Origin: Candidatus Poriferisocius aerobius
Lineage (GTDB): Bacteria > Actinomycetota > Acidimicrobiia > Acidimicrobiales > Bin134
Length of the DNA stretch: 39,771 nt
Reading direction: 5' to 3'
NCBI GenBank assembly: GCA_028278955.1
Contig: JAPYOC010000051.1
Coordinates: 1-39,771, forward strand
The notes below the pieces were generated by a model. It did no database searches, was not told the origin of the DNA, and saw only the letters and a list, made by a program, of their open reading frames with translations. The position numbers and the translations under genes are program-made. This document shows, piece by piece, positions 4,144 to 38,841 of the stretch; position 1 is the first letter of the stretch; each line of letters starts with the position of its first letter.

Positions 4144-4156
4144 TATACTTTGTATA
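4144..4156. promoter_or_regulatory. Operator-like palindrome A (TATAC-TTT-GTATA)
   Basis: Perfect 5-3-5 inverted repeat located 27 bases before the amidohydrolase ATG and about 10 bases before the putative transporter start, so it sits between divergent units. The stretch TATACT also reads as a -10-like hexamer, so a bound repressor would block the promoter. It is one of seven matches to TNTAC-N3-GTANA in this window. Confidence 0.7.
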
Positions 4157-4183
4157 GCAGCAACCAGCTTCGTGGAGGCCACC

Positions 4184-5521
4184 ATGACAACCGCACCTGC
4201 GCCCCCCGGATTGGACTATCCGATCAACGACGCCGACAACCACTTCAACGAGCCCCCGGACTGCTTTGAGCGCTACATCGACCCGAAGCACCGAGATTTG
4301 GCCATACGGCTGGTGACCGGACCGGGTGGGGAGCGCGTCGAGCTGTTCGCCGGGGCGCCCTCCAAGTTCAACACCAACCAGATCACCTTCTCGAAGGAAG
4401 AGCTGCGCGAGATGCTCGGGCAGGCGCCGGAAGTCGAGGCGGCGAGCTCGCAGCCGGCGGTGAGCGGGGATGAGGACGGCGCGGGCATCCTCCCCGGAAT
4501 GCTCCTGAACCGGCTCAATCCCCTGAAGGGCCTCTCCGAGGAAGAGCGCAGGGAGTTCATGGACGAGTTCAAGAACAAGTCCGAGGCCTATGGCAACCGC
4601 GATCTGCGCCTTGCGCTGATGGATGAGCAGGGCATCGACAAGGCGGTCATGTTCCCCGCCGCCGCCCACAACATCGAATACGAGTTCGCCGACAACATTC
4701 CGGCGCTGTACGCCAACGTCAGAGCCTTCAATCGTTGGATGCGCAACGAGCCCGGTTTCAACGCGATGAACCGCATGTTCTTGCCGCCCTACATACCCCT
4801 GGCCGACCCCGAGTTGGCGGTGCGGGAGCTCGAGACCGTCCTCGAGGAGGGTGCCATGATGATCCAGACCAAGTCGGGGCATGCCCACGGCGGTGCCGAC
4901 AACCCCTTCGGCGGGCGCTCAGTGGCCGACCCGGTGTACGACCGGTTCTGGTCCATCGCCAACGAAGCCGGCATCCGCTACGCGGTTCATTTGGGTGGCA
5001 CCGACTATCAGAAGTACGGGGCCGACTGGTCGTACAACGCCGATACCACCTTCGGCGACTTTGACGCCTTTCAATGGGTCATGTACTGGGGAGACCGGCC
5101 GGCAGCCGAATTGACCGCTGCGTTGGTGCTTCACAATTTCTTCGGCCGCTTCCCCAACATCAAGGTGCTCTTGGCGGAACAGGGGACGGTGTGGCTTCCC
5201 TACACCCTCCGCAAAATGGACCATGCCTTCATGATGGGCCGCAAGGTCCGCTGGCATGAGACGGGCCGGCTGGACGCCCGGCCGTCGGAGGTCTTCAAGC
5301 AGCACTTCTACGTGGCACCGTTCCCAGAGGAGAACGTCGGGCGTGTTGCGGCCGAGATCGGCGTCGAGTCGCTGGTGTTCGGCTCCGACTTCCCCCACGG
5401 CGAGGGTCTCGCCCGACCGGCTGAGTATGCGGGCTCGCAACTCTCAGGCTTCAGTGACGAAGACGTCCGCCGGATCATGCGAGACAACATGGAGGACTAC
5501 ATCGCTCCCTGCCTGGCCTGA
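4184..5521 (+). CDS. Amidohydrolase family 2 (ACMSD-like TIM barrel) protein
   Basis: This 445-aa protein belongs to the amidohydrolase-2 (PF04909-type) metal-dependent hydrolase/decarboxylase group. Candidate metal or catalytic residues: D18 and H20 in DADNH near the N-terminus, H269 (YAVHLGG), H317 (LHNFFGRFPNIKVLL) and D402 (VFGSDFPHGEG). The usual HxH is replaced by DNH, as in its paralogue at 18956. The ATG at 4184 is chosen because GGAGG (4174-4178) lies five bases upstream; a GTG at 4172 overlaps that site and is less likely. It heads an operon with crotonase and ACAD genes, the next ATG overlapping its TGA. In that context it may hydrolyse or decarboxylate a CoA-bound or free acid intermediate; the reaction cannot be read from sequence. 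Confidence 0.88.
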   Translation: MTTAPAPPGLDYPINDADNHFNEPPDCFERYIDPKHRDLAIRLVTGPGGERVELFAGAPSKFNTNQITFSKEELREMLGQAPEVEAASSQPAVSGDEDGAGILPGMLLNRLNPLKGLSEEERREFMDEFKNKSEAYGNRDLRLALMDEQGIDKAVMFPAAAHNIEYEFADNIPALYANVRAFNRWMRNEPGFNAMNRMFLPPYIPLADPELAVRELETVLEEGAMMIQTKSGHAHGGADNPFGGRSVADPVYDRFWSIANEAGIRYAVHLGGTDYQKYGADWSYNADTTFGDFDAFQWVMYWGDRPAAELTAALVLHNFFGRFPNIKVLLAEQGTVWLPYTLRKMDHAFMMGRKVRWHETGRLDARPSEVFKQHFYVAPFPEENVGRVAAEIGVESLVFGSDFPHGEGLARPAEYAGSQLSGFSDEDVRRIMRDNMEDYIAPCLA

Positions 5522-6261
5522 TGACTCCATCAGAGGGCAGCCGCTTCGTCCGCTACGAGATCCGAGAGGGCGTGTCGATCATCACGCTCGACCGTCGGCC
5601 TCTGAACGTGTACGACGCCGCCTTCAACGGGGAGTTCCAACGCTGCTGGCAACTCGCACGCGACGACGACCGCACCACGGCGGTGCTCATGTGGGCGAAG
5701 GGGAGGCACTTCTGCGCCGGGGCCAACCTGCGAGACCCGGCCCCGGCCCCCGAGGGCGGGGTTGGTCTCCCGGCGCCCGACGAGATTGAGCTGATCAAGA
5801 ACACGATGAAGCCCACCATCGCCGCGGTGAACGGCGGCTGCATCGGCGGCGGGCAGAGGATGGTGTGGCCGTGCGACATCATCTTCTGCACCGAAGACGC
5901 ATTCTTCATGGACCCAACGGCCGGCATGGGAATCGGCGGAATCCAGTCCCATGTCCACACCTGGTTCTACGGGCCCCGGCTGGCCAAGGAGATGATCTAC
6001 AGCGGCGAGCGGCTGGGCGCGTCGAGGCTGCACGCTCTCGGGCAGGTGAATCGAATCTATCCCGATGCGGAGACGCTCCACCGCGAGGCGTTCTCGTTTG
6101 CCCGCAACGTCGCGGCCAAAGACCCCGTGGCGCTGCGGCAGGCCAAGCGGGCCAGCGACATCACCATGGACATCATCGGCCAGCACTACGTGCTGTCGCG
6201 AATGCGAGAGCTGCTCGATGAGCCGGCCGTGCTCACTCTTCCCGCCGAGCAGCCCCAATGA
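5521..6261 (+). CDS. Enoyl-CoA hydratase/isomerase (crotonase) family protein lacking both usual glutamates
   Basis: This 246-aa protein has the crotonase fold signatures: oxyanion-hole segments HFCAGANL and GGCIGGG, and the C-terminal pattern GERLGASRLHALGQVNRIYP. In classical hydratases two glutamates act as acid and base. By hand alignment those positions are R113 (GGGQRMVWPCD) and T133 (MDPTAGMGIGG), so simple water addition seems unlikely. The superfamily also contains isomerases, C-C hydrolases, decarboxylases and thioesterases, and one of these is plausible. The start ATG overlaps the amidohydrolase stop (TGATG), so the two are translationally coupled and probably act in sequence. Confidence 0.88.
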   Translation: MTPSEGSRFVRYEIREGVSIITLDRRPLNVYDAAFNGEFQRCWQLARDDDRTTAVLMWAKGRHFCAGANLRDPAPAPEGGVGLPAPDEIELIKNTMKPTIAAVNGGCIGGGQRMVWPCDIIFCTEDAFFMDPTAGMGIGGIQSHVHTWFYGPRLAKEMIYSGERLGASRLHALGQVNRIYPDAETLHREAFSFARNVAAKDPVALRQAKRASDITMDIIGQHYVLSRMRELLDEPAVLTLPAEQPQ

Positions 6262-6323
6262 GGCTATGCCAGCCCTTTGGGCCGAATCGGTAGACGGCCC
6301 CGCGAGCGTCGAGGACTGAGCCA

Positions 6324-7484
6324 GTGTTGGGTCTGCCCGTGCAACTCCAGATGAGCGATGAGCAGGAGGCGTTCCGGGAGGCGATCCGCCGCTTCATCGA
6401 AACGGAGGTTCCCCTGTCCAAGGTGCGAGACCTCTATGGGGTGGCCGAGGGGTTCGAGTCGGCGTGGTGGCAGGAGGCGGCCAGGTTGGGATGGACGTCG
6501 CTGTTTGCGGACGAGCGCTACGGCGGGGGCAGCCTCTCCGGCGGCCGGGTGCGCGATGCGGTGATCCTCGCCGAGGAGATCGGACGGGGTCTTGCCCCCG
6601 GGCCGTTCCTCCCAGTGAACATCGTCGCGGCCGCCATCAGCCGAGGGGGCAGCGACGAGATCAAGACCGAGCTGCTTCCGGCACTGGTGGCGGGCGAGGC
6701 CGTCGCCGTGTGGGCTTTTGCCGAGCGAGCCGGGCGCTGGACGCTCAACGGCTTGGAGGCCGCTATAGATCGCACGGGCGACGGGCTCTTGTTGACCGGG
6801 GCCAAGCACTACGTGGAGGCGGCCGACAACGCCAGCCACGCGCTGGTGGCCGCGCTCTGCGACGGCCTCCCCACCCAGGCCATAGTGAGACTTGACGGCC
6901 CCGGGGTTGCGGTTCGCCGCGGTCGGAGCATCGACATGACCCGGAGGTTCGGCACCATCTGCTTCGAGAACGCCCCGGTCGAGCCCGCCTGGGTGGTTGG
7001 AGAGGTCGGACAGGCGGCCGAGGCACTGCATCAGCAGCTCCACATCGCCGTCGCCTTGCAGTGCGCCGAGCTGGTCGGCGTTGCCGACCGCACCCTCGAT
7101 TTCACCATCGAATACGGCCGAGACCGTTTCGCGTTCGGCCGGCCCATCTTGTCGTTCCAAGAGCTGAAGCACCGGATTGCCGACATGGTCCAGTGGCTCG
7201 AGGCGTCCAAGGCGCTCGCCGGGGCACTGGCCGAGGCGGTGGACGAGGGCGATGCCGATGCCGGGCGCCTGGCCCACACCGCCAAGGCCTATATCGGTGA
7301 TAAGGCGGCCCGCATCGTGGACGACTGCGTCCAGATAACTGGCGGCATCGGCGTCACCTGGGAGCACGACATACACATGTACAACCGCCGGGCCGCGCTC
7401 CTGCGCGCCCTCTACGGCTCTCCAGAGGAGCACAAAGAAGAGCTCTACTGTCTCTTGGAGGCCACGGTGGGCGCGAGCACATGA
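6324..7484 (+). CDS. Acyl-CoA dehydrogenase, small-subunit type (pair 1)
   Basis: This protein of about 386 aa has an ACAD N-terminal helical domain (MSDEQEAFREAIRRF), a middle beta domain and a C-terminal helical domain ending in GGIGVTWEHDIHMYNRRA. It lacks the later segment homologous to YEGTSQIQR of homotetrameric ACADs, which is typical of one partner of actinobacterial heteromeric ACADs (for example ChsE-type enzymes in mycobacterial cholesterol side-chain degradation). The start is uncertain: GTG 6324 has GAGG nine bases upstream, while GTG 6339 would give the family-like MQLQMSDEQ. It lies 62 bases after the crotonase gene and overlaps the next ACAD gene by ATGA. Likely role: FAD-dependent alpha,beta-desaturation of an acyl-CoA together with the 7481 product. 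Confidence 0.9.
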   Translation: MLGLPVQLQMSDEQEAFREAIRRFIETEVPLSKVRDLYGVAEGFESAWWQEAARLGWTSLFADERYGGGSLSGGRVRDAVILAEEIGRGLAPGPFLPVNIVAAAISRGGSDEIKTELLPALVAGEAVAVWAFAERAGRWTLNGLEAAIDRTGDGLLLTGAKHYVEAADNASHALVAALCDGLPTQAIVRLDGPGVAVRRGRSIDMTRRFGTICFENAPVEPAWVVGEVGQAAEALHQQLHIAVALQCAELVGVADRTLDFTIEYGRDRFAFGRPILSFQELKHRIADMVQWLEASKALAGALAEAVDEGDADAGRLAHTAKAYIGDKAARIVDDCVQITGGIGVTWEHDIHMYNRRAALLRALYGSPEEHKEELYCLLEATVGAST

Positions 7485-8737
7485 GCGGCGCCAGCGGTAC
7501 CGAGGCGCTGAGCGAGTTCCGCCGTCGCTGCCAGAACTGGATTGCCGCCAATCTTCCGCCCAAAAGCGCCCCAGCCGAGGACCCCGTGGCGCTGCAGCGC
7601 CTCCTGTTCGACAGCGGTTACGCCGGGATCCCCTTTCCCGAGGAATACGGCGGTGCGGGCCTGACCCTAGAGCACCAGCAGGCGTTCTACGACCTGGCCC
7701 ATGAGCTGGGCCGCCAGGTTCCATCCGGGGTAGCGCTCATGGTCTCGGTGGGGATGCTCGGACCGACCATCCTCGAACACGGCTCCCACGAGGTGAAATC
7801 CCGGTTCTTGCCCGGGCTGTTGAGAGGAGACGACCTCTGGATACAGCTGCTCTCCGAGCCCCGGGGCGGCTCGGACATGGCCGGGGCGCGGACCAGGCTC
7901 GTCCGCGACGGCGACAGCTATGTGCTCACCGGATCGAAGATGTGGAGCACCGGGGCCCATCAATCCGACTACGGGCTCTGCCTGGCCCGCACCGACTGGG
8001 AGGCGCCCAAGCACCGGGGGCTTTCGATGATCGCGGTGCCCTTGGCGCCCACCACGCCGGGGCTCGTTGTGCAGCAGACCCGCTCGGCCGATGGCACGAT
8101 GGGGGAGTTCTGCGAGGAGTTCTTCGATGACATCGTTCTCCCCTCCGAGAACCTCATCGGGGAGGAGAACATCGGATGGGCCGTTGCCCAGACCCTTTTG
8201 TTCCACGAGCGCAACGCGGTGGCCAATGTCGGCTACGGCTACATCGGGTGGGACCAGTCTGAAAGCCCTGCGGGCGCCTACGAGCCGGGACGGGTCTCCG
8301 ATCTCATCGGGATCGCCCGACAGCGCGGCGTCGACCAGAACTCGTCGGTACGACAGCTCATCGCCGACGTGTTCATCGAAGAGGCCGTCTTGCCGCTGAG
8401 CAGCGCCCGGGTGATGACTGGCATGGCGCTGGGAACCCATGAGGGCCAATGGGGCTCGCTGTTGAAGCTCCAAGAGTCTGAGGCCGCCATCGAAAGGGTG
8501 CGGGCCGCGCTGGCCGCTTGTGGCGCCGAAGGCGTCATCTGGGAGGGCGACGACATAGAGCTGGACAATCCGGGTACGAGTTGGCTCCTCGCGCGCGGGG
8601 GCACCCTGGCCGGCGGGAGCAGCGAGATGCAGCGCAACATCATCAGCGAGCGGTTGTTGGGACTTCCCCGCGAGCCGTCAGTTGAGCGGGGTCTCTCCTT
8701 CAACGAGGTGCTGAGGCGCCAAGAGTCGTTTGAGTAG
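7481..8737 (+). CDS. Acyl-CoA dehydrogenase, large-subunit type (pair 1)
   Basis: This 418-aa ACAD has YGGAGLTLEHQ in the N-terminal domain, LLSEPRGGSDMAG and LTGSKMWSTGAH for FAD/substrate contact in the middle domain, and AGGSSEMQRNIISERLLGLP near the C-terminus. The residue aligned with the catalytic Glu of medium-chain ACAD (in YEGTSQIQR) is Gly, so the base must come from another position, as in isovaleryl-CoA-dehydrogenase-like and ChsE-type subunits. Its ATG overlaps the TGA of the small subunit (ATGA), which supports a stoichiometric two-subunit enzyme. The gene ends head-on against ACAD pair 2. Confidence 0.92.
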   Translation: MSGASGTEALSEFRRRCQNWIAANLPPKSAPAEDPVALQRLLFDSGYAGIPFPEEYGGAGLTLEHQQAFYDLAHELGRQVPSGVALMVSVGMLGPTILEHGSHEVKSRFLPGLLRGDDLWIQLLSEPRGGSDMAGARTRLVRDGDSYVLTGSKMWSTGAHQSDYGLCLARTDWEAPKHRGLSMIAVPLAPTTPGLVVQQTRSADGTMGEFCEEFFDDIVLPSENLIGEENIGWAVAQTLLFHERNAVANVGYGYIGWDQSESPAGAYEPGRVSDLIGIARQRGVDQNSSVRQLIADVFIEEAVLPLSSARVMTGMALGTHEGQWGSLLKLQESEAAIERVRAALAACGAEGVIWEGDDIELDNPGTSWLLARGGTLAGGSSEMQRNIISERLLGLPREPSVERGLSFNEVLRRQESFE

Positions 8738-8753: not shown

Positions 8754-9938
8754 TCAAGACCGGGGAAGCCCGAGCACGCGATCAGCGATGATGTTGCGCT
8801 GGATCTCCGAAGACCCCGCTGAGATCGTCCCTGCGAAAGTGGAGAAAAAATCCTCCTGGGTTCCCACCTCGGTGTCACGGCCCGATACCGGTCGCAGCCC
8901 GGCCGGGCCGGCCAGTTCGGCGGCGACGAGGGCCAGCCGCTGCCTGACCTCGCTGGTGTAGACCTTCATCAGAGCCTGCTCCGGCGCGGTGCCCCCTCTC
9001 ACATAGCGGGCAAAACCTCGGTATCCCATGCAGCGAGCGGCCAGGACGTCCACATGGAGGCCGACGAAGTCGTCGATGGCGCCGGCCCTCTCCAGAGGCC
9101 CCAAGTCCCCGAGGAGCTCGGGGGCGAGCTCGAGAAGCCGTTTGAGAGCCACCTCGTTTCCGAACACCGACATCAGCCACACCAAGCTCCGCTCGTGGGC
9201 CAGCGAGTCGTTTGCCATTCGCCAGCCGTTGTTCAGCGCTCCCACGAGGTTCTCGGCGGACACGGTCACGTCGTCCAGAAAAACCTCATTGAGGTCGGGG
9301 AAGCGAGGGTGGACGATCTCCATGAGGGGGCGCACGGTCACCCCGCCCGCGTCCATGGGGACCAACACGATCGAGATGCCCTGATGCTTGGGCACATCGG
9401 GATCGGTGCGGCAGAACATGAAGCAGAAATCTGCGTCGTGAGCGCCGGAGGTCCACACCTTCTGGCCGTTCAGGACGATTGAATCCCCGTCGAACACCGC
9501 CCGAGTCTTGAGGCTGGCCAGGTCGCTTCCGGCATCGGGTTCGCTCATTCCGAGGCACGCGGTGAGGTCGCCGCGCAACAACGGCATGGCATAGCACTCG
9601 ATCTGGTCCTCGCTGCCGTGGTCGATGAGCGACGGAGCGACAATCCCCAAGCCCTGCGGGTTGGTGGTCCGTGGGATACCCCTGTTGTCGAGCTCTTCTA
9701 GGTAGACCAGGGTCTCGACCGGGTCGGCGTTTCGACCGCCGAGTTCAGGCGGCCAGCCCGGTACCAGCCAGCCATCGTCGAACATCCGCTTGGCCCAGCG
9801 CCTTGCCCACGGAGGCCGGTGGGCAGAGGAGCGAACCGGCGCCGACTCCATCTCCTCTGGGGTCGGCTGGTTCTCGTCGAGCCATTCCTGGAACTGGCCT
9901 CGGAAGCGCTCCACGTCGTCGTCGTAGCGGAGCTTCAT
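8754..9938 (-). CDS. Acyl-CoA dehydrogenase, large-subunit type (pair 2)
   Basis: This 394-aa ACAD starts at ATG 9938 (MKLRYDDDVERFRGQF), with GGGGGAG just upstream and an ATGA overlap with the preceding small-subunit gene; the open frame further upstream is spurious. Visible motifs are WPPELGGRNADPVETL, GMSEPDAGSDLASL, LNGQKVWTSGAHDADFCF and AGSSEIQRNIIADRVLGLP. As in the other large subunits, the MCAD-type catalytic Glu position is not Glu. Likely role: partner of the 9935-11050 product in desaturating an acyl-CoA of the island's pathway. Confidence 0.92.
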   Translation of the reverse strand: MKLRYDDDVERFRGQFQEWLDENQPTPEEMESAPVRSSAHRPPWARRWAKRMFDDGWLVPGWPPELGGRNADPVETLVYLEELDNRGIPRTTNPQGLGIVAPSLIDHGSEDQIECYAMPLLRGDLTACLGMSEPDAGSDLASLKTRAVFDGDSIVLNGQKVWTSGAHDADFCFMFCRTDPDVPKHQGISIVLVPMDAGGVTVRPLMEIVHPRFPDLNEVFLDDVTVSAENLVGALNNGWRMANDSLAHERSLVWLMSVFGNEVALKRLLELAPELLGDLGPLERAGAIDDFVGLHVDVLAARCMGYRGFARYVRGGTAPEQALMKVYTSEVRQRLALVAAELAGPAGLRPVSGRDTEVGTQEDFFSTFAGTISAGSSEIQRNIIADRVLGLPRS

Positions 9939-11050
9939 GACTCCCCCCTGTCCGCGAGCCCCAGAATGGCCGCCAGCTCGCTGCGGTGGAAGCGGCTGCT
10001 TCCACACAGCAACTCGCCCGCCTTGGCCCGTTTGAGCAGAAAGTGCAGGTCGTTCTCCCAGGTGAAGCCGATGCCGCCGTGGAGTTGAAGCCCGTCTCGG
10101 GCCAGAAGCCTCTGGCAGTCTCCCGCCGCGATCTTCGAGGAATGGGTGGCCGCCGCTCGGCCCTCATTGTCTTCGGCGATGCACAGGCTGGCGTAGTAGC
10201 ACACGGCGGTGGCGCGCTCCACCGCCAGCAAGAGGTCGGCAAGACGGTGTTTGAGGGCCTGGAACGAGCCGATCGGCCGCCCGTACTGCTCGCGCCCCTT
10301 GGCGTACTCCAGCGTGACTTCGAGGATTCTGCGGCAAGCCCCAACCGTTTGCATCGCCATCGCCACCACCGCTTGCTGAAGCACCCGCTCGACCGCCTCG
10401 CTCGATCCGTCGCCCGGTTCGACGAGGGCCTTGGCCGGGGCTCCGTCGAACTCCACGTCGGCGAGGGCGAGGGTCGGCTCTATGGACGGCCGGGGCCGCG
10501 CCTCGGCGTCGCTGGCCTCCACGAGGAACAGCCCAGGTGCGCCGGTACGGCCGTGGGTGGCCAAGACCGCGAAGGAGCTGACTTCGCCGCCGGAGAGGGC
10601 ATCGGTCTTGGATCCCGAGATCCTCCATGCATTTGCGGCCGGCTGGGCCACGGTCTGAGGTTTCTCAGGCCGCCACCGGCCGCGTTCTGAAACAGCTAGT
10701 GCGCCGGTTCGCCGGCCGGCCGCCACCTCTTCCATCTCGCCGTGCGCCTTGGCCTTGAGCAGTGCGGGAGTGAGCTGCGAAGCGGTGGCCAGCAGCGGAC
10801 CCGGAGCAGTCGCCCGTCCCAAGTCTTCGGCGAGAAGAGCCACTTCGACGAACCCGAGGCCCAACCCGCCCGCGCCCTCCGGCACCGACAGGCCGGGCCA
10901 GCCGAGGTGGGTCATCTGCTCCCACAGCGCCGCTGCATTCCCGGTCCCCTCGTACACTGCTCGAACGGCGGCGGGCGGGCAGGCGCCTTCAAGCACGGCT
11001 CTTATGTTTTCCCGCAGGTCAAGCTGGTCATTGGAGAGTTCGAGATCCAT
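9935..11050 (-). CDS. Acyl-CoA dehydrogenase, small-subunit type (pair 2)
   Basis: This 371-aa protein begins MDLELSNDQLDLRENIRAVL, a classic ACAD N-terminus, and carries YGRPIGSFQALKHRLADLL and GGIGFTWENDLHFLLKRA. It lacks the C-terminal EIQRNII-type segment found in its partner, as expected for one half of a heteromeric ACAD. The ATG at 11050 is preceded by GGGAAGA. Palindrome B lies 19 bases upstream, in the gap shared with the divergent ABC-importer operon, so the two are probably co-regulated. Confidence 0.92.
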   Translation of the reverse strand: MDLELSNDQLDLRENIRAVLEGACPPAAVRAVYEGTGNAAALWEQMTHLGWPGLSVPEGAGGLGLGFVEVALLAEDLGRATAPGPLLATASQLTPALLKAKAHGEMEEVAAGRRTGALAVSERGRWRPEKPQTVAQPAANAWRISGSKTDALSGGEVSSFAVLATHGRTGAPGLFLVEASDAEARPRPSIEPTLALADVEFDGAPAKALVEPGDGSSEAVERVLQQAVVAMAMQTVGACRRILEVTLEYAKGREQYGRPIGSFQALKHRLADLLLAVERATAVCYYASLCIAEDNEGRAAATHSSKIAAGDCQRLLARDGLQLHGGIGFTWENDLHFLLKRAKAGELLCGSSRFHRSELAAILGLADRGES

Positions 11051-11069: not shown

Positions 11070-11082
11070 TATACCTAGTATA
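11070..11082. promoter_or_regulatory. Operator-like palindrome B (TATAC-CTA-GTATA)
   Basis: Perfect 5-3-5 inverted repeat in the divergent gap, 19 bases before the ACAD ATG (minus strand) and 74 bases before the importer lipoprotein ATG (plus strand). It has the same arm sequence and spacing as sites A and G. One site could control both operons. Confidence 0.72.
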
Positions 11083-11156: not shown

Positions 11157-12623
11157 ATGAGTGTTTCGTTTCGCCTGGTGATGCCGGTCGTGTTGGCGGT
11201 CGCATTGATTGCGGCCGCGTGCGGCAACGACGACGACTCATCGGCTGGCACCGATGTTTCCGCGACCGGTGAGGCAACGGCTGAGGCCGAGGTGCAAGCG
11301 ACGCCGGAGCCCGAAGAGCCGGAGGCAACGGCTGAGGCCGAGCCCGAAGAGCCTGAGGCAACGGCTGAGGCCGAGCCCGAAGAGCCTGATGAGAGCGATA
11401 TGTTTGTTCCCCTCGATGGCGTGCCGGGCGTGAGTGATGAGGAGATCGGCGTCGCCGTCATCGGGACGAATTCGAACAACCCGCTCGGAAATTGCGTCCT
11501 CGATTGCTACCAGACAGGCGTGCAGGCGTATTTCGACATGGTGAACAGCGAGGGCGGGCTGTACGGGCGCCAGCTTGTGATCAACCGGAGCATCGATGAC
11601 GAGTTGTTCAACAACCAGGCAGCCTCGCTGGAGGTCATTGCCGAAGACGACTCGCTGGCCGCGTTCACGGCCACGCTCTTCGCCAGCGGCTGGGCAGACC
11701 TCGATGAGGCCGGGATTCCCAACTACCACTGGGGTATCCACCCCACCGACGCGGCTGGCCTGCAGACCAACTTTCCCCTGCCCGCGGCAAGCTGCCCCAC
11801 CTGTACCAGTCGCTTCATTGCCTACCTCGCCCAGCAAGCCGGCGCCACCAGGGTGGCGGCGCTCGGCTATGGCATCACTGAGAACTCAAGGACCTGCGCC
11901 AACACCTATGCGGACTCGATCGACCTCTACTCCGGAGACATCGGCGCTGAAACCGTCTACCTCAACAACGAGCTGGAGTTCGGGCTGCCCAACGGGATCG
12001 GCCCCCAGGTGACCGCGATGGTCGAAGCCGGGGTGGACTTCATCGTGTCGTGCATCGACCTCAACGGGATGACGACCCTGGCCCAGGAGCTTGAGCGCCA
12101 AGGCGTGCGCGACCAGATAGCGATGCACCATGCCAACGGCTACGACCACGCTTGGGCGGCCAGGCTGGGCTCGCTCTTGGACGGCGACCTCGTTGCTTTC
12201 CAGCATGCGCCCTTCGAGGCCACCGGCGTGGCTGCGGTTGCCGATTTCCTGGAATGGACGGAGGCCAATGGGGGGCCCATAGGCGAGCCGACGATGTACG
12301 GTTGGGTCAACGCTGACTTGTTCGTGGCGGGCCTCAAGGCCGCCGGCCCTGAGTTCAGCCGAGAGGCAATCATCGAGGCCAGCAACACCGAACTCACCGA
12401 GTACTCGGCTAATGGCCTGGTCAACGAGACCGACTGGTCGCGCCAGCATCTACCGCCCGTTCCCGAAGATCGCATCACCAACGGGCACAGGAAGGAGTGC
12501 GTGGCGGCGGTGAGGATACAAGGAGGAGCGTATGAACTGCTGGGCACGGCCGATGCGCCGTTCCTCTGCTGGGACAACTCCAACACTGATTGGGCCGATC
12601 CTGAACCCACGAGCTTCAGCTGA
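11157..12623 (+). CDS. ABC importer substrate-binding lipoprotein (branched-chain amino acid/amide type)
   Basis: This 488-aa exported lipoprotein has a hydrophobic signal ending in a lipobox, with lipidated C22 (LIAAACG). A Glu/Pro/Ala linker (about residues 35-80) is followed by a type I periplasmic-binding fold: EEIGVAVIGTNSNNP, YFDMVNSEGGLYGRQL, then the second lobe from about residue 205. It would capture substrate outside the membrane and deliver it to the LivHM permease encoded next. AGGAGA (11147-11152) precedes the ATG. Family members bind amino acids, amides, short-chain acids or aromatics; the local context suggests the island's own carboxylic substrate, but that is inference. Confidence 0.9.
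   Translation: MSVSFRLVMPVVLAVALIAAACGNDDDSSAGTDVSATGEATAEAEVQATPEPEEPEATAEAEPEEPEATAEAEPEEPDESDMFVPLDGVPGVSDEEIGVAVIGTNSNNPLGNCVLDCYQTGVQAYFDMVNSEGGLYGRQLVINRSIDDELFNNQAASLEVIAEDDSLAAFTATLFASGWADLDEAGIPNYHWGIHPTDAAGLQTNFPLPAASCPTCTSRFIAYLAQQAGATRVAALGYGITENSRTCANTYADSIDLYSGDIGAETVYLNNELEFGLPNGIGPQVTAMVEAGVDFIVSCIDLNGMTTLAQELERQGVRDQIAMHHANGYDHAWAARLGSLLDGDLVAFQHAPFEATGVAAVADFLEWTEANGGPIGEPTMYGWVNADLFVAGLKAAGPEFSREAIIEASNTELTEYSANGLVNETDWSRQHLPPVPEDRITNGHRKECVAAVRIQGGAYELLGTADAPFLCWDNSNTDWADPEPTSFS
11322..11387 (+). repeat. 33-bp tandem repeat in the lipoprotein linker
   Basis: Two identical 33-base units (11322-11354 and 11355-11387) encode an 11-residue Glu/Pro/Ala-rich unit, EATAEAEPEEP. 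A 21-base partial copy starts at 11271. The repeat stays in frame and lengthens the acidic tether between the lipid anchor and the binding domain; copy number is likely to vary between strains. Confidence 0.85.
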
Positions 12624-12627
12624 TCCG

Positions 12628-12669
12628 CCCCGCGCATTTCCGCACGTGATCTAGAGCACCCAAGCGGGG
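12628..12669 (+). promoter_or_regulatory. Possible hairpin covering the livHM ribosome binding site
   Basis: CCCCGC (12628-12633) can pair with GCGGGG (12664-12669), leaving a 30-base loop. The right arm overlaps the G-rich ribosome binding site of the GTG-initiated permease gene. It could tune permease translation relative to the abundant binding protein; with a six-pair stem this is weak. Confidence 0.25.
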
Positions 12670-12678
12670 GGTACGAAT

Positions 12679-16309: not shown

Positions 16310-16383
16310 CGCCTGATGGACGAGGCGGCTGGTTTGCGCCCGGCGTGGGAAGCAGCAGCCGATCTTGGGTGAGCCGGTAGCTC

Positions 16384-17846: not shown

Positions 17847-17861
17847 ATTGAGAGTGTGTCC

Positions 17862-18896: not shown

Positions 18897-18909
18897 TGTA
18901 CGCTGTATA
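18897..18909. promoter_or_regulatory. Operator-like palindrome C (TGTAC-GCT-GTATA)
   Basis: Palindrome with one arm mismatch, 46 bases before the second amidohydrolase start. TATAGC within it is -10-like. Same core TAC-N3-GTA as the other sites. Confidence 0.62.
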
Positions 18910-18955
18910 GCTAGGAGGGGCCGAGGCTTCGGCGCCTGAAGCTAGGAGGATGCAG

Positions 18956-24970: not shown

Positions 24971-25022
24971 ACCTCGACCACTGCCTCTGACATCATATCT
25001 GCCGAGGTGAAGAGGTCGATTT

Positions 25023-26213: not shown

Positions 26214-26396
26214 TGGCGGCCTCCTTTCGGATCCCGTCATCCTACTTTTCTCCTAACGTTGGTGTCACCCCTGTCGGCCCCGAAGATGGGCTTCTCGACT
26301 GCCGGCGCTCGAGTAATCTAGTATCCGTGTCGTTCAAGGGAAGCTGGCGTTGGAGGCACCGAGGAGCACTTGTTCGCCGAGTAGGGGAAGGGGGCC

Positions 26397-28705: not shown

Positions 28706-28756
28706 CGGAGCGCTCTTAGAATATGCCGACGAGAAACGCCGAGGGGAAGACCATCC

Positions 28757-29579: not shown

Positions 29580-29592
29580 GAGCGCGTCGCTC
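29580..29592. terminator. Hairpin between convergent crotonase and SDR genes
   Basis: Perfect repeat GAGCG-CGT-CGCTC at the end of the 30-base convergent gap, touching the SDR stop codon. Similar in form to the hairpin at 8737; possible bidirectional terminator. Confidence 0.4.
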
Positions 29593-30512: not shown

Positions 30513-30525
30513 TGTACACAGTAAA
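30513..30525. promoter_or_regulatory. Operator-like palindrome E (TGTAC-ACA-GTAAA)
   Basis: Palindrome placed almost exactly midway between the divergent SDR start (34 bases) and the cupin start (35 bases). The core TAC-N3-GTA is intact; the outer positions vary. Its central position suggests control of both genes. Confidence 0.6.
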
Positions 30526-30560: not shown

Positions 30561-30956
30561 ATGCGCTGCGTGATAACTGCTAACGACGAACAGGGGCGGT
30601 CCTTCGTCGCTCGGGAGATCGAGGTCGGGAGCGGGCTCACCGATGTGTTCGCGCACGACGACGTCGCCTCCTTGGCGCCGTTGGGCGAAGTTGTGGACTG
30701 GGGAGACGAGATGCCGGCACCGGGCGGGGTCCGCTGGCTGTTCAACCGGGTGGCGCCCGGGCAGCGCTGGGAGATGCACGCCACTCCCACCATCGATCTG
30801 GATGTGGTCATCGAAGGCGAGGCGGATCTCATCCTCGACAGCGGCACCGTGAAGCTCGGTGCCGGAGATGGCGCACTGGTGACCGGACGCCATGGCATCC
30901 AAGGTGGCCCCGAGGGCTGTCTGATGGCGATCGTGCTGCTCGGGATCGGCGGCTGA
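30561..30956 (+). CDS. Small cupin-domain protein
   Basis: This 131-aa single-cupin protein shows motif 1 around PGQRWEMHATPTIDLDVVIEGEADL (H and E positions conserved) and motif 2 around GDGALVTGRHGIQG. Such proteins are small metal-binding isomerases, dioxygenases or sensors. ATG 30561 is set by GGAGG (30551-30555) five bases upstream; a TTG at 30549 overlaps that site and is rejected. It shares operator E with the SDR, so it is probably part of the pathway; the reaction is unknown. Confidence 0.82.
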   Translation: MRCVITANDEQGRSFVAREIEVGSGLTDVFAHDDVASLAPLGEVVDWGDEMPAPGGVRWLFNRVAPGQRWEMHATPTIDLDVVIEGEADLILDSGTVKLGAGDGALVTGRHGIQGGPEGCLMAIVLLGIGG

Positions 30957-31003: not shown

Positions 31004-32257
31004 CTACCACACGCATCCCGGCGTGTCGACGGCATAGGCCGTCTTCAGCGGCGACGGCTCGACATCGGTTGCCGGGATCGCAACCGGGCCGCGCCGACGC
31101 GAGGGCAGAAGAACTTTAGCCCGGCCCGGCGCGGTGACCTCCCCCCGCTGGTTTTCGCACCAGATCTCCAACTCCACCAGATTGCGCTCCCCCTCCTGGC
31201 GCTTGTCGGCGACTTTGGCGTTCACCCAGGTCGTGTCGCCGTGGAAGTTGAACACCCGGACCTCGTCGGCCAGTTCCCAGACGAAGCCGTCGTCGCCCAC
31301 CCAGTTGGTGAGATAGTGCATCATCCACGAGGTGCGCATGAACGCGTAATCGTAGGCCCGGGGATTGCCGACCTCCTTGGCCCGGTCGTCGTCCCAGTGC
31401 ACCCGCATTGTTGAAGACCAGGCCCCGTCTTTGGTCTTGCTGTAGAAGGAGGGGATGCGCTTTCGGTTCAGGTAGTCGAGGCGGTTGACACCGTTGCGGA
31501 ACATGCCCCAGCCCATCCCCATGTGCCAGGCGATCATGTCCTGCACCTGCAGCGGCCCCTTGACCATCGAGGGCATCTCCATGCCGGGCTCGACGTCTTC
31601 CCAGTAGAGCGTGTCGGAACCCCGGCGAAACTCGTTCTCGTAGGCCCCGTCGATTCGAGTGAGATAATCCTCGTCGTAGAAGGGCGGCTCATAGGTCTTG
31701 GTGTTCTTGCTCGCCTTCTCCGACGCCTCCCGCTCGACGTAGAAGAAATGGAAGCGGCGGATCGCAATCATTTCGTTGCGCTGGTTGACGTACTCCTTGC
31801 GGTGGCGAACGATCAATGCCCTGCCGCCGCCGAACTCGCTTTTGGTTTCCTCAACGTCTTCGACGAAGTGGTTCAGATGGACGAGGTCGCCCGGTCGGAT
31901 GGGCCGAATCAGCTCGTAGCTGCCGCCCGCTAGGTAGTTGGGCACACCGCGCAGTGCTCCAGACCCGGCGGCGCGAACCTCTTTGGGCACCGGCGGAGTC
32001 CCGGTGTTGTCGAGCGAGAGGAGGTACATCGGAGGGGCGACAACCCCTCCCCATCGCGTGGTTTTGGCGTAGTCCTCGTCGCAGAAGATCGGATTGTCGT
32101 CACCGTAGGAGTGGGCGAAATGGCGGATCGTGTCCTTGTGCGGCTCCTGGTTGAACGGAGCGCCCTCTTTGATCAAAACCCCGATCCTCTTGCGGTATCT
32201 CTCGATCCCGTCTGCCGTTATCTTCCCGGTCACCTCGGCGTCCCCCTGCTTGGCCAT
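31004..32257 (-). CDS. MaoC/FAS1-like double hot-dog dehydratase
   Basis: This 417-aa protein has two hot-dog domains. The N-terminal one (about 15-180) carries HSYGDDNPIFCDEDYA and WGGVVAPPMYL, the FAS1-like dehydratase form in which the MaoC His is replaced by an aromatic residue. The C-terminal one (about 215-400) contains GPLQVQDMIAWHMGMGWG and a FNFHGDTTWVNAKV stretch. The family hydrates or dehydrates enoyl-CoA thioesters, often of bulky acyl chains. AGGAGGAGG-type sequence sits just before ATG 32257. It is the third gene of the TetR-ligase-dehydratase operon, 22 bases after the ligase stop. It probably adds water to an ACAD product. Confidence 0.9.
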   Translation of the reverse strand: MAKQGDAEVTGKITADGIERYRKRIGVLIKEGAPFNQEPHKDTIRHFAHSYGDDNPIFCDEDYAKTTRWGGVVAPPMYLLSLDNTGTPPVPKEVRAAGSGALRGVPNYLAGGSYELIRPIRPGDLVHLNHFVEDVEETKSEFGGGRALIVRHRKEYVNQRNEMIAIRRFHFFYVEREASEKASKNTKTYEPPFYDEDYLTRIDGAYENEFRRGSDTLYWEDVEPGMEMPSMVKGPLQVQDMIAWHMGMGWGMFRNGVNRLDYLNRKRIPSFYSKTKDGAWSSTMRVHWDDDRAKEVGNPRAYDYAFMRTSWMMHYLTNWVGDDGFVWELADEVRVFNFHGDTTWVNAKVADKRQEGERNLVELEIWCENQRGEVTAPGRAKVLLPSRRRGPVAIPATDVEPSPLKTAYAVDTPGCVW

Positions 32258-32279
32258 GGCCTCCTCCTCTGGCCGCGGG

Positions 32280-33845
32280 TCAGATCCGCCGGCCGGAGTC
32301 GGCCCAGTAGCGGTCGCGGATCTCGCGTTTGAGCACCTTGCCGGTGTCGCTGCGGGGCAGTTCACCCACGAAGTCGACCGAGCGGGGGCACTTGGACGGC
32401 GCGAGCTTCTCCCGGCACAGGGCGATCAGCTCGTTCTCCAGGGAGTCCATCTCCGCCGCGGTGGCGGGGGCAACGACCGGCTCCACCACCGCCTTCACCT
32501 GTTCTCCCCACTCGTCGTCGGGGATGCCGACGACGGCCGTGTCGGCCACTGCGGGATGGGTGGCGAGGACGTTCTCGATCTCCGAGGGGTAGACGTTGAC
32601 GCCCCCGCTGATGATCATGTCCTTCTTCCGGTCGGCGAGGAACAGGTAGCCGTCTTCGTCCAGGTAGCCCAGATCTCCGATGGTGAAAGCGGTGTCCTGG
32701 AAGACCTCGTCGGTTTGGGCCGGATCGCCGGTGTACCGGAAGAGCCGCTCGCCGGTGTCGATGAACACCTCGCCGACCTCGCCCGGAGGCAGCAGACCGC
32801 CGTTGTCGTCGCGGATGGTCACGGTCACGCCCCGCACACTGCGCCCGACCGTCCCCGGCTTCTCGAGCCAGCGGTAGGGCTTGGCGATCGTTGCCGCGCC
32901 TTCGGTGCCGCCGTAGGTCTCCCAGAGCACGGGTCCCCACCAGTCCATCATGCGGTGTTTGACCGACGGAGGGCACGGTGCAGCGCCGTGGACCACGACT
33001 TCGAGGCTTGAAACGTCATAGGCGGCTCGGGTGGCCTCGGGGAGCTTGAGCAACCGGTGGAACATGACGGGCACGGCGTAGACGGTGGTGACGCGGTGCT
33101 CCTGGATCGCCTTGAGCATTTTCTCAGCGTCGAACCTCGGGTGGATCACAACGGCCTGTCCCATATTGAGCGCCGCCATGTAGAACACGCGGCTGCCGCC
33201 ATGGAACATCCCGGCCGTCATCAAGAGACTGCCCCGCAGCGGCGAGAGCGAGAAGGCCCTGCCGGTGAGCGCGGCCTCGTGGGCCAGCTCTGAGGGGTCC
33301 CCTTCCCGCAGTCGCCGTTTGATGCCCTTCGCACGGCCGGTCGTGCCGGAGGAGAACGCGAAGAACGCCCCCGGGCTCCGTTCTTCGGGTATGGTGGCCG
33401 GGTGGGGCTCAAGGAACGCGTCAACCGACGTGATTCCGGGAACCTCCCCGACCGAGACGAGCGCGCGCAGCCCTTGGCACCGGGCGATGCCGCTCAGCGC
33501 CTCGGCGTTTGAGGCGTCGAAGACGAGCGCTGACGCCTCGGAAGCCTCCAATACCGCCTCGATCTCATCTGACGATGAGCGTGGGTTGATCATCGTCAGA
33601 TGGAGCCCGCTCTGCTCGCACGCGAGCAACCACTCCACAAGCTGGCAGTCGTTGGGCAGCAAGGCGGCAACGGCTCCACCGCGCTCGAGGCCGGCGCCGC
33701 GCAGCGCATGCACGATCCGGTGGGCCTGCTCGGCCAGCTCGCCGAACGAGCGGGGGCCCGAGGGGGAGGCAAGGATGGCCGGCAGCTCCGGATGGTCCTC
33801 GGCGATCCACCAGAATCCCAGCCGCTGTGGCCCCGGATCGGTCAC
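32280..33845 (-). CDS. Acyl-CoA ligase (AMP-dependent synthetase), copy 1
   Basis: This 521-aa adenylate-forming enzyme has the phosphate-binding loop SSGTTGRAKG (the usual Pro before KG is Ala), YGGTEGA, IGDLGYLDEDGYLFLADRKK and the C-terminal catalytic K503 in SDTGKVLKREIR. It activates a carboxylic acid to acyl-CoA through acyl-AMP. The GTG start at 33845 overlaps the TetR stop (GTGA), so regulator and ligase are translationally coupled. The CoA ester made here may be the regulator's ligand, as is common for TetR proteins in catabolic clusters; that is inference. Confidence 0.93.
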   Translation of the reverse strand: MTDPGPQRLGFWWIAEDHPELPAILASPSGPRSFGELAEQAHRIVHALRGAGLERGGAVAALLPNDCQLVEWLLACEQSGLHLTMINPRSSSDEIEAVLEASEASALVFDASNAEALSGIARCQGLRALVSVGEVPGITSVDAFLEPHPATIPEERSPGAFFAFSSGTTGRAKGIKRRLREGDPSELAHEAALTGRAFSLSPLRGSLLMTAGMFHGGSRVFYMAALNMGQAVVIHPRFDAEKMLKAIQEHRVTTVYAVPVMFHRLLKLPEATRAAYDVSSLEVVVHGAAPCPPSVKHRMMDWWGPVLWETYGGTEGAATIAKPYRWLEKPGTVGRSVRGVTVTIRDDNGGLLPPGEVGEVFIDTGERLFRYTGDPAQTDEVFQDTAFTIGDLGYLDEDGYLFLADRKKDMIISGGVNVYPSEIENVLATHPAVADTAVVGIPDDEWGEQVKAVVEPVVAPATAAEMDSLENELIALCREKLAPSKCPRSVDFVGELPRSDTGKVLKREIRDRYWADSGRRI

Positions 33846-34450
33846 TTGCCGCTCTCGTGCTGGGCGCGGTCGAGCATCGCCTGGAGTCCGGCGATGACGG
33901 TCTCCACCCCGAAGGCCAAATGCTTCTTGGCCGAGATATCGCTGAGCCCCATGGCCCGCGCTGCCTCCCGGTCCAGGTTCGCGTCGACACTGAGGCGACC
34001 GTGGACGTAGGTGATTGCACATGGCCAGGCGAGTCGGGCTAGGCGGGGCGGGAAACCGGCGCGCTCCAAGAACTCGATCCCGCCGTGGTAGACGTCAGGC
34101 GACATCCCGAGATCAGGCAGCGCGATCAGGTGTTCGTCCAAACCCCGATACGCCCGCAGCGTGGTCCACAGTGACGTCAAAAAGCTGTTCAGGGCCTCCT
34201 CCCACGTCGTGTCGCCTAGATCACTCGGGAGGTCGGACTGCTCGGCGATGACTGCCGCGGCGAGCAGTCCGAGGAGATCGTCTTTGTTCTTCACGTGGTA
34301 GTAGAGCGCCATGGGCGTGACCTCGAGCTCTGCCGCCACCGATCGCATGGTGACGGCATCGACCCCCTGGTCGCGTGCGAGCCGCAGGGCGACCTCCACG
34401 ATCTCATGGCGCGACAGGGGAGAACTCCGGCGGCTTGGGGCGACAGCCAT
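33842..34450 (-). CDS. TetR-family transcriptional regulator
   Basis: This 202-aa protein has an N-terminal TetR helix-turn-helix (LSRHEIVEVALRLARDQG, then TMRSVAAELEVTPMALYYHV and KNKDDLLGLL) and a helical ligand/dimerisation domain. It is the only DNA-binding regulator I find in the window. ATG 34450 gives a normal family N-terminus; a GTG at 34459 is possible. Palindrome F lies 86 bases upstream, so it may repress its own operon (TetR, ligase, MaoC dehydratase). I propose that it binds the recurrent TNTAC-N3-GTANA sites; the pairing is inferred from location only. Confidence 0.92.
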   Translation of the reverse strand: MAVAPSRRSSPLSRHEIVEVALRLARDQGVDAVTMRSVAAELEVTPMALYYHVKNKDDLLGLLAAAVIAEQSDLPSDLGDTTWEEALNSFLTSLWTTLRAYRGLDEHLIALPDLGMSPDVYHGGIEFLERAGFPPRLARLAWPCAITYVHGRLSVDANLDREAARAMGLSDISAKKHLAFGVETVIAGLQAMLDRAQHESGK

Positions 34451-34536: not shown

Positions 34537-34549
34537 TCTACACTGTACA
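34537..34549. promoter_or_regulatory. Operator-like palindrome F (TCTAC-ACT-GTACA) before tetR
   Basis: Palindrome 86 bases upstream of the TetR start, in the 143-base gap after the second ligase gene. The core TAC-N3-GTA is intact. It would place the regulator's own operon under the same control as the catabolic units. Confidence 0.58.
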
Positions 34550-34557
34550 GCGAACAG

Positions 34558-34593: not shown

Positions 34594-36237
34594 TCAGAGC
34601 TGCTGGCGCAACTCGACCTTTTTGATCTTGCCCGATGCCGTGCGGGGGAAGTCCGCCACCGCCACCACCTTTTCCGGAGTCTTCTGCTTGGCCGCCCCGA
34701 GCTGGGCAAAGTGATCGGCGAGCGCGGCAACGGTGGGCGCTTGCGCTCCCTCGGCCGGCCTCACGAAAATGCAGACCCGCTCTCCATACCGCGGGTCTTC
34801 CATGCCGACCGCGGCGGCCTCTGCGACGGACGGATGGCGTCGGACGAGGTCTTCGATCTCGAGGGAGGAGAGGTTCTCGCCGCCCCGGATGATGATGTCC
34901 TTTATCCGGTCAGTGATCGTGAGGTTGCCCTGGTGGTCGAATACGCCGACGTCGCCGGTGCGGAACCAGCCGCCGGGCGCGAAGGCCGCTGCGTTGAGCG
35001 CCGGATCGGTGTAGCCAACGAACTGGTCGGGTCCGATCGTCCAGATCTCCCCCTCTTCGCCGGGTTCCAGATCGCGCCCGTCCCCGTCGACAATGCGCAG
35101 TCGGGTTCCCTCATAGATCTGGCCATCGGTCCTCGACCGCTGGCCGAGCGGGGTTGAGCGAAGGCCCATGCTGACCGACGGGTGCTCAGAGGATCCGTAG
35201 GTGCGCCGCATGGTCCATCCCAGTTTTTCTGAGCGCTCGACCAGCGAGGGCGGCACACCGGCGGCGCCACAGGTGGCCTCTACCACCGTGGCGAGTCTCG
35301 GGTCGCCGGCTTCGTGCAGATCCATCAGGGCGCCGACGTGGAACGGGGTGCCGTTCACCAGGGTGACTTGGTGGGCTTGGATCTGGTCCGCAGCCGCGTC
35401 TGGATCCCAGCGGTCGAGCAAAACGTTCCGCAGGCCCGCGACGACTGGGTTGAGGAGCATGATCAACCCGGCGATATGGCCGGCGGGGAAGGGGTGGAGC
35501 GCAACCATGCTCTTGTCGCAGACCGGGGGAGCGAAGATGTCGCGCACCTCGGTGATAAAGGTTTCGTGGGTGTGGATAACCCCTTTGGGGTCTGAGGTGG
35601 TTCCCGACGTGTAGACCACCAACAAGGGGTCGCCAGCGTCGAGCGCCGCGGGCTCGAAGGCCGGCTCGGCTCGGGCCCGGCCCTCGAGTTCGCTCCAGGC
35701 CACTGTCTGGGGTGGAGCGTCATCTCCCACGATGATGACATCGAGGTTTGCGGTCGCCGGCATATCGTGCAGGCGGCCCGCGAAATCGAGGTTTCCCCAA
35801 CGGTCGGGGCACATGTACAGGCGCGCCCCCGATGCCTGGAGGATCCAGTCGGTCTCACGAGGCCCATACGTATGCACAATCGGGACGAACACCACGCCCA
35901 GCGTCGCCAGCGCCAGGTAGGCAACGGCCGTCTCGCGCCAGTTGGGAAGCTGAACCGCGACGACGTCGCCATGCCGGAGCCCCGTGGCGGCCAGGGCGCT
36001 GGCCATGGTGAGCGAATCGCGCTGAAGCTCCTCAAGGGTGAAGACCGAGGGACGCTCCATTGAGTGCAGCACGAGCTGAAGGTCGGGGGTGCGCCGGGCC
36101 GAGTCCGCCAAAGCCTCCGGCAGCGTTCGACCGTCGTACCGGCCCGTGCTGCGCCAGTGCTGGCGCAGACGCCGTCGAGCGTCTCGGATCCCCTCGTCGG
36201 CAAAGAGCGCATCGGGATTGAATGGGTGATCTAGCAT
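34594..36237 (-). CDS. Acyl-CoA ligase (AMP-dependent synthetase), copy 2
   Basis: This 547-aa adenylate-forming enzyme has YTSGTTSDPKGVIHTHE as phosphate-binding loop, TYGSSEHPS in the A5 region, GWFRTGDVGVFDHQGNLTITDRIKD and catalytic K537 in TASGKIKKVELRQQL. By eye it is only distantly similar to the other ligase, so the two may act on different acids. ATG 36237 follows GGAGGAG; the open frame upstream is discarded. A degenerate palindrome lies 84 bases upstream. The gene appears monocistronic. Confidence 0.93.
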   Translation of the reverse strand: MLDHPFNPDALFADEGIRDARRRLRQHWRSTGRYDGRTLPEALADSARRTPDLQLVLHSMERPSVFTLEELQRDSLTMASALAATGLRHGDVVAVQLPNWRETAVAYLALATLGVVFVPIVHTYGPRETDWILQASGARLYMCPDRWGNLDFAGRLHDMPATANLDVIIVGDDAPPQTVAWSELEGRARAEPAFEPAALDAGDPLLVVYTSGTTSDPKGVIHTHETFITEVRDIFAPPVCDKSMVALHPFPAGHIAGLIMLLNPVVAGLRNVLLDRWDPDAAADQIQAHQVTLVNGTPFHVGALMDLHEAGDPRLATVVEATCGAAGVPPSLVERSEKLGWTMRRTYGSSEHPSVSMGLRSTPLGQRSRTDGQIYEGTRLRIVDGDGRDLEPGEEGEIWTIGPDQFVGYTDPALNAAAFAPGGWFRTGDVGVFDHQGNLTITDRIKDIIIRGGENLSSLEIEDLVRRHPSVAEAAAVGMEDPRYGERVCIFVRPAEGAQAPTVAALADHFAQLGAAKQKTPEKVVAVADFPRTASGKIKKVELRQQL

Positions 36238-36321: not shown

Positions 36322-36334
36322 TTTACGCCGCAAA
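36322..36334. promoter_or_regulatory. Degenerate operator-like palindrome H (TTTAC-GCC-GCAAA)
   Basis: It matches TNTAC-N3-GTANA at all but one defined position (C for T in the right arm). It lies in the 265-base divergent gap (36238-36502), 84 bases before the ligase and 168 before the WS/DGAT start. Nothing else in that gap is recognisable. Confidence 0.35.
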
Positions 36335-37870: not shown

Positions 37871-37903
37871 TCGAGCGGCAGAGGCGGCTTGGCCAACCGC
37901 GCT

Positions 37904-37923
37904 CAGCAGGGCTGGTTCTGCTG
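37904..37923. terminator. Hairpin between convergent WS/DGAT and SDR genes
   Basis: CAGCAG (37904-37909) pairs with CTGCTG (37918-37923) around an eight-base loop in the 86-base convergent gap. Possible bidirectional terminator. Confidence 0.35.
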
Positions 37924-37956
37924 GGGTGAAGAACTCGGCGCCGCCGTGGACTGCGG

Positions 37957-38784
37957 TTAGCGGTTGGCCGGCGCCTGGCGCCCCACGACGTCTTTCTCCC
38001 ACCCGTCGGCGCGCCGAACAAAGGCGTTGATCTTGTCGGCGACTGCCTCGGTTCGCGGCACGAGGTCGGCAATGAAGTCGATTTCGGCGGGGTAGATGTC
38101 GGGCTCGCCTGCGAGTATCCCTTTGACTGAGAAGCGGGCGAATCGGTCGATGGCCTCGGCGCCGAACTGCTCCTTGCCCGGGAGGCTCATGTCGGGGGCC
38201 AGCCCGGTGTCGAGAAGGGGCGGGTAGATCTCCACGACCGTCACCGGGGTTTCGGCAAGCTGTCGGCGAAGCCCCATGGTGAACATGTGGAATCCTGCCT
38301 TGGACGCGGAATAGAGCGGGTTAGGCTCGAGCGGGAACAGCGCCCCGGGCGTGCCAATGTTGGCGATGGTGGCAGAGCGCTCCTCCCAGCCCTGCTCGCG
38401 GCGCATCCACAAGAAGCGGCGGGTGAGCTCCACCGGCGCGGCGAAGTTGGTCTCGATCTCGGCGCGGGCCAGATTCTGCGAGAGGGTGGTGTCGTTGGTG
38501 TAGTCGCAGGCGAAGCTGACCCCGGCGTTGTTCACCAGCAGGTCCAACGGCTTTCCGGTACGCAAGACCTCGGTGCAAAGCCGATCGAGGTCGGCGGTAT
38601 CGGTGATATCGGCTTGCGTCACCCGCAGCGCCGGTACATCGGCTCGGGCGGCCTCAAGCCGCGCCGGTGTCCGCCCGCAGGCGAGCACGTCGTAGCCGGC
38701 GGCTAGGAGGTGGCGCGACAACGCCAGGCCGAGTCCATAGGTTCCGCCGGTGACCAAGGCGAGCTGCCGGTCGGATTCGCTCAT
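37957..38784 (-). CDS. Short-chain dehydrogenase/reductase, classical
   Basis: This 275-aa SDR has TGGTYGLGLALS (cofactor), ACGRTPARLE, ADITD, NNAGVSF and the catalytic Y158/K162 in YSASK. The usual catalytic Ser region reads NIGTPGA, so the Ser appears to be Thr or Gly. By its segments (for example EIYPPLLDTGL) it resembles the DltE/YbbO-like SDR group. ATG 38784 follows GGAG by six bases. Perfect palindrome G lies 44 bases upstream, which ties this gene to the proposed regulon. Confidence 0.92.
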   Translation of the reverse strand: MSESDRQLALVTGGTYGLGLALSRHLLAAGYDVLACGRTPARLEAARADVPALRVTQADITDTADLDRLCTEVLRTGKPLDLLVNNAGVSFACDYTNDTTLSQNLARAEIETNFAAPVELTRRFLWMRREQGWEERSATIANIGTPGALFPLEPNPLYSASKAGFHMFTMGLRRQLAETPVTVVEIYPPLLDTGLAPDMSLPGKEQFGAEAIDRFARFSVKGILAGEPDIYPAEIDFIADLVPRTEAVADKINAFVRRADGWEKDVVGRQAPANR

Positions 38785-38828
38785 CGCCTGCTCCTTTCGG
38801 GTCGCGGTGCTCGATGCAGCACCGCTGT

Positions 38829-38841
38829 TATACACAGTATA
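38829..38841. promoter_or_regulatory. Operator-like palindrome G (TATAC-ACA-GTATA)
   Basis: Perfect 5-3-5 inverted repeat 44 bases upstream of the SDR start (minus strand). On the minus strand TATACT reads as a -10-like hexamer; on the plus strand TATAAT (38838-38843) overlaps it but leads to no gene. Confidence 0.7.

Follow-up and report, generated by a model that had tools for sequence, protein, structure and literature searches.

The window analysed here, a 39,771-nt stretch of Candidatus Poriferisocius aerobius (contig JAPYOC010000051.1, assembly GCA_028278955.1) that makes up 1.6% of the 2.48-Mb genome, carries a putative acyl-coenzyme A (acyl-CoA) catabolic cluster, a gene specifying a 202-amino-acid TetR-family protein and, in the gaps between the genes, recurring copies of the palindrome TNTAC-N3-GTANA (TNTACNNNGTANA). 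These palindromes are very probably the operators of this protein, which would act as a dimeric, metabolite-released repressor of one local regulon; from sequence comparison the link between palindrome and TetR protein is well supported, though not proven. The local regulon is probably a new one of a known kind, with a TetR repressor governing most, not all, of the catabolic cluster. The regulator and the predicted operators are as follows, with conservation given for a sister species of the same genus (G001), a further congener (G004) and a member of another family (G351).

33842 to 34450, minus strand: TetR-family regulator, 202 amino acids, recognition helix VTPMALYYHV, proposed binder of the sites.
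4144 to 4156: predicted operator TATACTTTGTATA, 5′ of the amidohydrolase, enoyl-CoA hydratase and two-gene acyl-CoA dehydrogenase operon; kept in G001, G004 and G351.
11070 to 11082: predicted operator TATACCTAGTATA, between acyl-CoA dehydrogenase pair 2 (minus) and the importer operon (plus); kept in G001.
18897 to 18909: predicted operator TGTACGCTGTATA, 5′ of the second amidohydrolase; kept in G001.
20635 to 20647: predicted operator TTTACATCGTATA, 5′ of a short-chain dehydrogenase/reductase (SDR) gene; kept in G001 with a changed spacer.
30513 to 30525: predicted operator TGTACACAGTAAA, between a divergent SDR gene (minus) and a small cupin-like open reading frame (ORF; plus); in G001 the arms are kept and the flanks have diverged.
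34537 to 34549: predicted operator TCTACACTGTACA, 86 bp 5′ of tetR and probably its autoregulatory site; absent in G001.
36322 to 36334: weakened predicted operator TTTACGCCGCAAA, one mismatch, 5′ of the first acyl-CoA ligase; intact in G001 (TTTACGCTGTAAA).
38829 to 38841: predicted operator TATACACAGTATA, 5′ of the last SDR gene; kept in G001.

The seven palindromes reported in the initial annotation of this DNA were all recovered, three of them (4144, 11070 and 38829) as a perfect TATAC-N3-GTATA, and the eighth site, at 36322, was indeed found to be one mismatch away, its right arm being broken in the window (GCAAA) and intact in G001 (GTAAA). The annotation had also expected less than one match by chance, and this was borne out, as the seven matches to TNTAC-N3-GTANA compare with 0.02 expected and were reached in 0 of 100 shuffles, while the core TAC-N3-GTA (TACNNNGTA) has eight matches versus 0.44 expected. 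The core match TACCCTGTA at 36411 lacks the outer T/A, is not kept in G001 and was treated as chance. A genome-wide scan returned nine copies of the palindrome, seven of which are located in the gaps of the window cluster (binomial P about 1e-11) and two, on contigs C60 and C97, within long ORFs, so that the gap-located motif is concentrated at the catabolic cluster and not at unrelated promoters. The core alone is not rare across the genome (60 copies, as compared to 166 for a reversed-pattern control), which implies that specificity would be carried by the outer bases or the fuller palindrome together with the position in a gap. TNTAC-N3-GTANA is thus real but was described too short: alignment of 16 sites from the two species gave a consensus of approximately 19 bp, t(a/g)cTaTAC-N3-GTAtAg(t/c)a, and the longer pattern TACTATAC-N3-GTATAGTA, allowing up to three mismatches, has four matches in the genome, all within the window, and six in G001, all at regulon positions.

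The predicted operators are situated about 19-87 bp 5′ of the start codon, most at 19-44 bp and a few at 74-87 bp, and in all promoters checked the operator and the best -10-like hexamer overlap, albeit that this is a weak point given the AT-rich nature of the motif. Operators so close to start codons and overlapping -10-like hexamers are most simply read as those of a dimeric repressor occluding RNA polymerase. Under this mechanism the core promoter of each operon would be covered by a TetR homodimer bound to the approximately 19-bp palindrome, and RNA polymerase would be blocked; the amidohydrolase, hydratase and acyl-CoA dehydrogenase operons, the ABC (ATP-binding cassette) importer, several SDRs, the acyl-CoA ligases and tetR itself would thereby be controlled as one regulon. 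The repressor would be released by a pathway metabolite, for which the imported acid or the CoA thioester of this acid is the likeliest candidate, and arrival of the substrate would in this way switch the pathway on. Binding, repression as its direction, the effector and the substrate are all inferred here. An EamA transporter frame on the minus strand (3514 to 4185), apparently half of a normal transporter and perhaps a gene remnant, spans the site at 4144.

The palindrome is found upstream of orthologous genes in both G001 and G351. In the former, where the cluster is spread over several contigs with DNA about 82-92% identical to that of the window, seven of ten TNTAC-N3-GTANA sites are orthologous to those at 4144, 11070, 18897, 20635, 30513, 36322 and 38829, and both arms have been kept while the flanks (at several promoters) and the N3 spacer (at some) diverged. 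The sites on G001 contigs C40 and C150 fall in open frames and were treated as chance. G001 encodes a TetR orthologue with 77% identity and was the sole one among 21 congeners checked to do so, no close TetR relative being found in the others. In this species hardly any gap is left between the first ligase and tetR, and a counterpart of the 34537 site is lacking, so that tetR there probably relies on the upstream site, while the window tetR has its own; comparison of these two genomes suggests that the autoregulatory site has undergone turnover. An extra site of G001 matches all 19 bp and precedes an acyl-CoA dehydrogenase gene next to a P450 gene (L090, G001:C11, 1428-1446); in the window genome (L125, G000:C180) the flanking genes are 94% identical to those of G001 C11 and the gap holds a half site only (CTACTATAAG).

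Relatives of the window TetR were searched among 397 genomes of the order, and three more distant ones were considered. A 54% orthologue in G351 is specified by the third gene of an amidohydrolase-hydratase-tetR operon, the first two genes of which are 77% and 72% identical to their window counterparts, and CTGTAC-CCA-GTACAG is located about 25 bp before the first ATG, a position equivalent to that of site 4144. The G351 matches on contigs C31 and C11 are in open frames and were regarded as chance. In G204 the gene for a 41% orthologue has three CCGTAC-N3-GTACGG palindromes around it, all within about 4 kb, one of them 77 bp 5′ of the tetR start and one before an enoyl-CoA hydratase gene, and just four CGTAC-N3-GTACG sites were found in this 2.9-Mb genome, three of them near tetR. 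Together the G351 and G204 sites indicate a constant TAC-N3-GTA core with outer bases that vary as the protein does. Orthologous amidohydrolases of G089, G067, G213 and G204 are without a site, as would be expected if the site accompanies the regulator and not the gene family. A TTGTAC-N3-GTACAA pair 16 kb apart in G121 (C53:88492 and 104413; L107, L108) was not taken as support, since this contig has a different TetR (41% over the helix-turn-helix) and both copies overlap long open frames; the pair may mark a second regulon with operators of this class.

The palindrome was further tied to the window TetR by a route independent of the window cluster. At 44 loci of distant TetR homologues, picked by protein similarity alone and thus blind to the motif, 704 dyads (64 triplets, gaps of 0-10) were scored in 350 bp upstream, with the expectation taken from the rest of the same loci, and TAC-N3-GTA ranked first with 27 copies in 19 of the 44 loci versus 0.93 expected. 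In a hold-out of 15 plasmid loci, likewise picked by protein similarity only, it again ranked first (14 copies in 7 of the 15 loci versus 0.56 expected), with two copies per motif-bearing promoter. A recognition helix that contains methionine (xxM-x-x-Y) is present at 25 of 26 motif-bearing loci and at 17 of the 33 that lack the motif (Fisher P about 1e-4, uncorrected for relatedness and with helix classes set post hoc). On these promoter counts TAC-N3-GTA is the predicted operator core of a wide TetR subfamily, and the window protein shows both features that define this subfamily here, namely the core 5′ of its gene (at 34537) and a helix of the form xxM-x-[LI]-Y. We are cautiously inclined to extend this to an operator code that can be read across a large TetR subfamily, within Actinobacteria and beyond, in which the xxM-x-[LI]-Y helix would use the core and the outer bases (TA, TG, CG, CA) would drift with the protein. 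The initial annotation had presented the connection to TetR as inference; that the core follows the protein down to 41% identity, in G204, and recurs at subfamily promoters now supports it. On a plasmid of the alphaproteobacterium Shinella sumterensis (L168) a 28% homologue adjoins an amidohydrolase gene, as in the G351 operon, and TAC-N3-GTA is absent upstream. Text searches for TACNNNGTA and variants returned no TetR paper and those for literal operator strings mostly unrelated papers; in the literature texts that were searched, no statement of a subfamily-wide TAC-N3-GTA core was found.

The window TetR scores 41.8 bits with Pfam TetR_N (cut-off 24), and its AlphaFold2 model (predicted local distance difference test score 83.5) is an all-helical TetR fold with a ligand-binding domain. 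Foldseek aligned TetR(D) over the whole length (E 1.6e-7), the nearest folds being TetR(D), PamR2 and ActR, and by sequence the closest solved structures are these three and SimR. Close relatives in named genomes were not found, none exceeding 43% identity. TetR(D), PamR2, ActR and SimR are antibiotic-linked regulators, with 24-28% identity in the top fold matches; the nearest structures, TetR(D), PamR2 and ActR, bind antibiotics and do not settle the ligand of the window protein. The arrangement resembles that of KstR and KstR2 in that numerous promoters of a catabolic cluster, one with genes for acyl-CoA enzymes, would be under a TetR protein. As the annotation had held, the KstR and KstR2 operators differ from the window palindrome. 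The KstR model scores 22.4 bits on the window TetR against an NCBIfam cut-off of 280. The best full-length NCBIfam match is MftR2, at 92.3 bits far under the cut-off of 285; MftR responds to long-chain acyl-CoA (PMC8728441), and its operator, T-N2-GGCA-N5-TGCC-N2-A, differs from the palindrome described here. Pip, the pristinamycin-responsive TetR-family repressor of the ptr promoter, has published operators of two 4-bp palindromes with a 3-bp spacer, a geometry also seen in GTAC-N3-GTAC of G351 and G204, whereas the window arms are mostly TATAC/GTATA and TAC-N3-GTA alone is common. The likeness to Pip is one of operator geometry; Pip controls antibiotic efflux from three clustered operators at one promoter, whereas the window has single operators across a catabolic cluster. 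The remaining genes of the window cluster are listed below.

4184 to 8737, plus strand: operon of amidohydrolase, enoyl-CoA hydratase and two acyl-CoA dehydrogenases.
8754 to 11050, minus strand: acyl-CoA dehydrogenase pair 2.
11157 to 18830, plus strand: ABC importer (binding protein, permease, two ATPases) with glyoxalase-like, SnoaL-like and alpha/beta hydrolase genes.
18950 to 20209, plus strand: second amidohydrolase.
20684 to 21499, plus strand: SDR oxidoreductase.
21523 to 22398, minus strand: luciferase-like monooxygenase.
22425 to 29560: block of aldehyde dehydrogenase, SDR, P450, acyl-CoA dehydrogenase pair 3 and enoyl-CoA hydratase, without any site.
29591 to 30478, minus strand: SDR oxidoreductase.
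30561 to 30956, plus strand: small protein, cupin-like by eye only, without a Pfam match.
31004 to 33833, minus strand: MaoC/FAS1-type dehydratase and second acyl-CoA ligase (left ends 31004 and 32280; ligase start provisional).
34594 to 36237, minus strand: first acyl-CoA ligase (AMP-binding).
37957 to 38784, minus strand: SDR oxidoreductase.

The tetR gene is flanked by the two acyl-CoA ligases, with the MaoC-like dehydratase beyond, and the dehydratase and second-ligase genes lie 3′ of tetR in the same direction. It is this context of ligases, dehydratase, importer, amidohydrolases, acyl-CoA dehydrogenases and SDRs that makes an imported acid or its CoA thioester the probable effector. The annotation had paired the SDR following site 20635 with a Rieske protein, which proved incorrect, the neighbour being the luciferase-like monooxygenase (21523-22398, minus). 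One acyl-CoA dehydrogenase of the site-free block resembles IpdE2, with a score far below the IpdE2 cut-off. Within the same block the window junction at 26275-26314 is only about 40 bp long where G001 has, between its P450 and acyl-CoA dehydrogenase genes, a tandem double-TetR gene, i.e. one frame with two TetR_N domains (L061, G001:C8, about 12190-13560). Two TetR_N domains in one protein have been described for Mce3R. A partial aconitase gene at the contig edge (3-1550, minus) probably lies outside the catabolic cluster.

Several observations weigh against the proposed pairing of palindrome and TetR: about half of the tested homologues with the methionine helix are without TAC-N3-GTA upstream, the tetR promoter of G001 has no site, and there is no convincing site near the 42% TetR homologue of G121. 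The block at 22425-29560 is likewise devoid of sites, and the regulon, which had been annotated as extending across 35 kb, is hence supported over most of the cluster and not in this part. G004, whose cluster contig has a G+C content of 54%, has an orthologue of the amidohydrolase operon, with a good site (ACTTTACGATGTATAGT) in the promoter, yet its assembly gave no TetR match; its tetR may be in the missing 5% of the assembly, or lost. This last case would suit another regulator, with its gene elsewhere in the genome, binding the sites while the window TetR has another target, as would the additional tandem TetR protein that G001 encodes inside the cluster. We consider this improbable, as the tandem protein is absent from the window genome where the sites are kept, and the core goes with the window TetR in both G351 and G204, and with its subfamily in each of two independent samples. 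In addition, TAC-N3-GTA does not occur within about 1.5 kb of any of the four other TetR_N proteins that the window genome encodes, nor of those of G001, and the helix differs in those other TetR proteins of the window genome in which it was read.

That the TetR protein binds the sites mainly as an activator or mixed regulator appears more improbable still: some TetR proteins do activate and a few sites lie 74-87 bp 5′ of the start codon, but the majority, at 19-44 bp and overlapping the best -10-like hexamer, are placed where binding would block the polymerase. A chance or promoter-composition effect of AT-rich gaps in a GC-rich genome might be suggested by the resemblance of the arms to -10 hexamers and by the higher A+T content of the gaps; it is nevertheless exceedingly improbable in view of the shuffles, is strongly disfavoured by the retention of both arms at seven orthologous promoters, and sits poorly with outer bases that become G/C (CGTAC) in relatives while the core stays. 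Repression of a local regulon by the window TetR is accordingly the reading we retain.

A specific regulator-operator pair is thereby proposed for a large catabolic cluster, as yet uncharacterised, in a genome that is known from contigs only, and this pair marks genes that probably act together. The shared core could help in finding the operators and targets of many TetR proteins not yet studied, and could be a source of biosensor parts. If the operator code is true, it would allow the regulons of many uncharacterised TetR proteins to be read from sequence, with the 35-kb cluster as a worked example.
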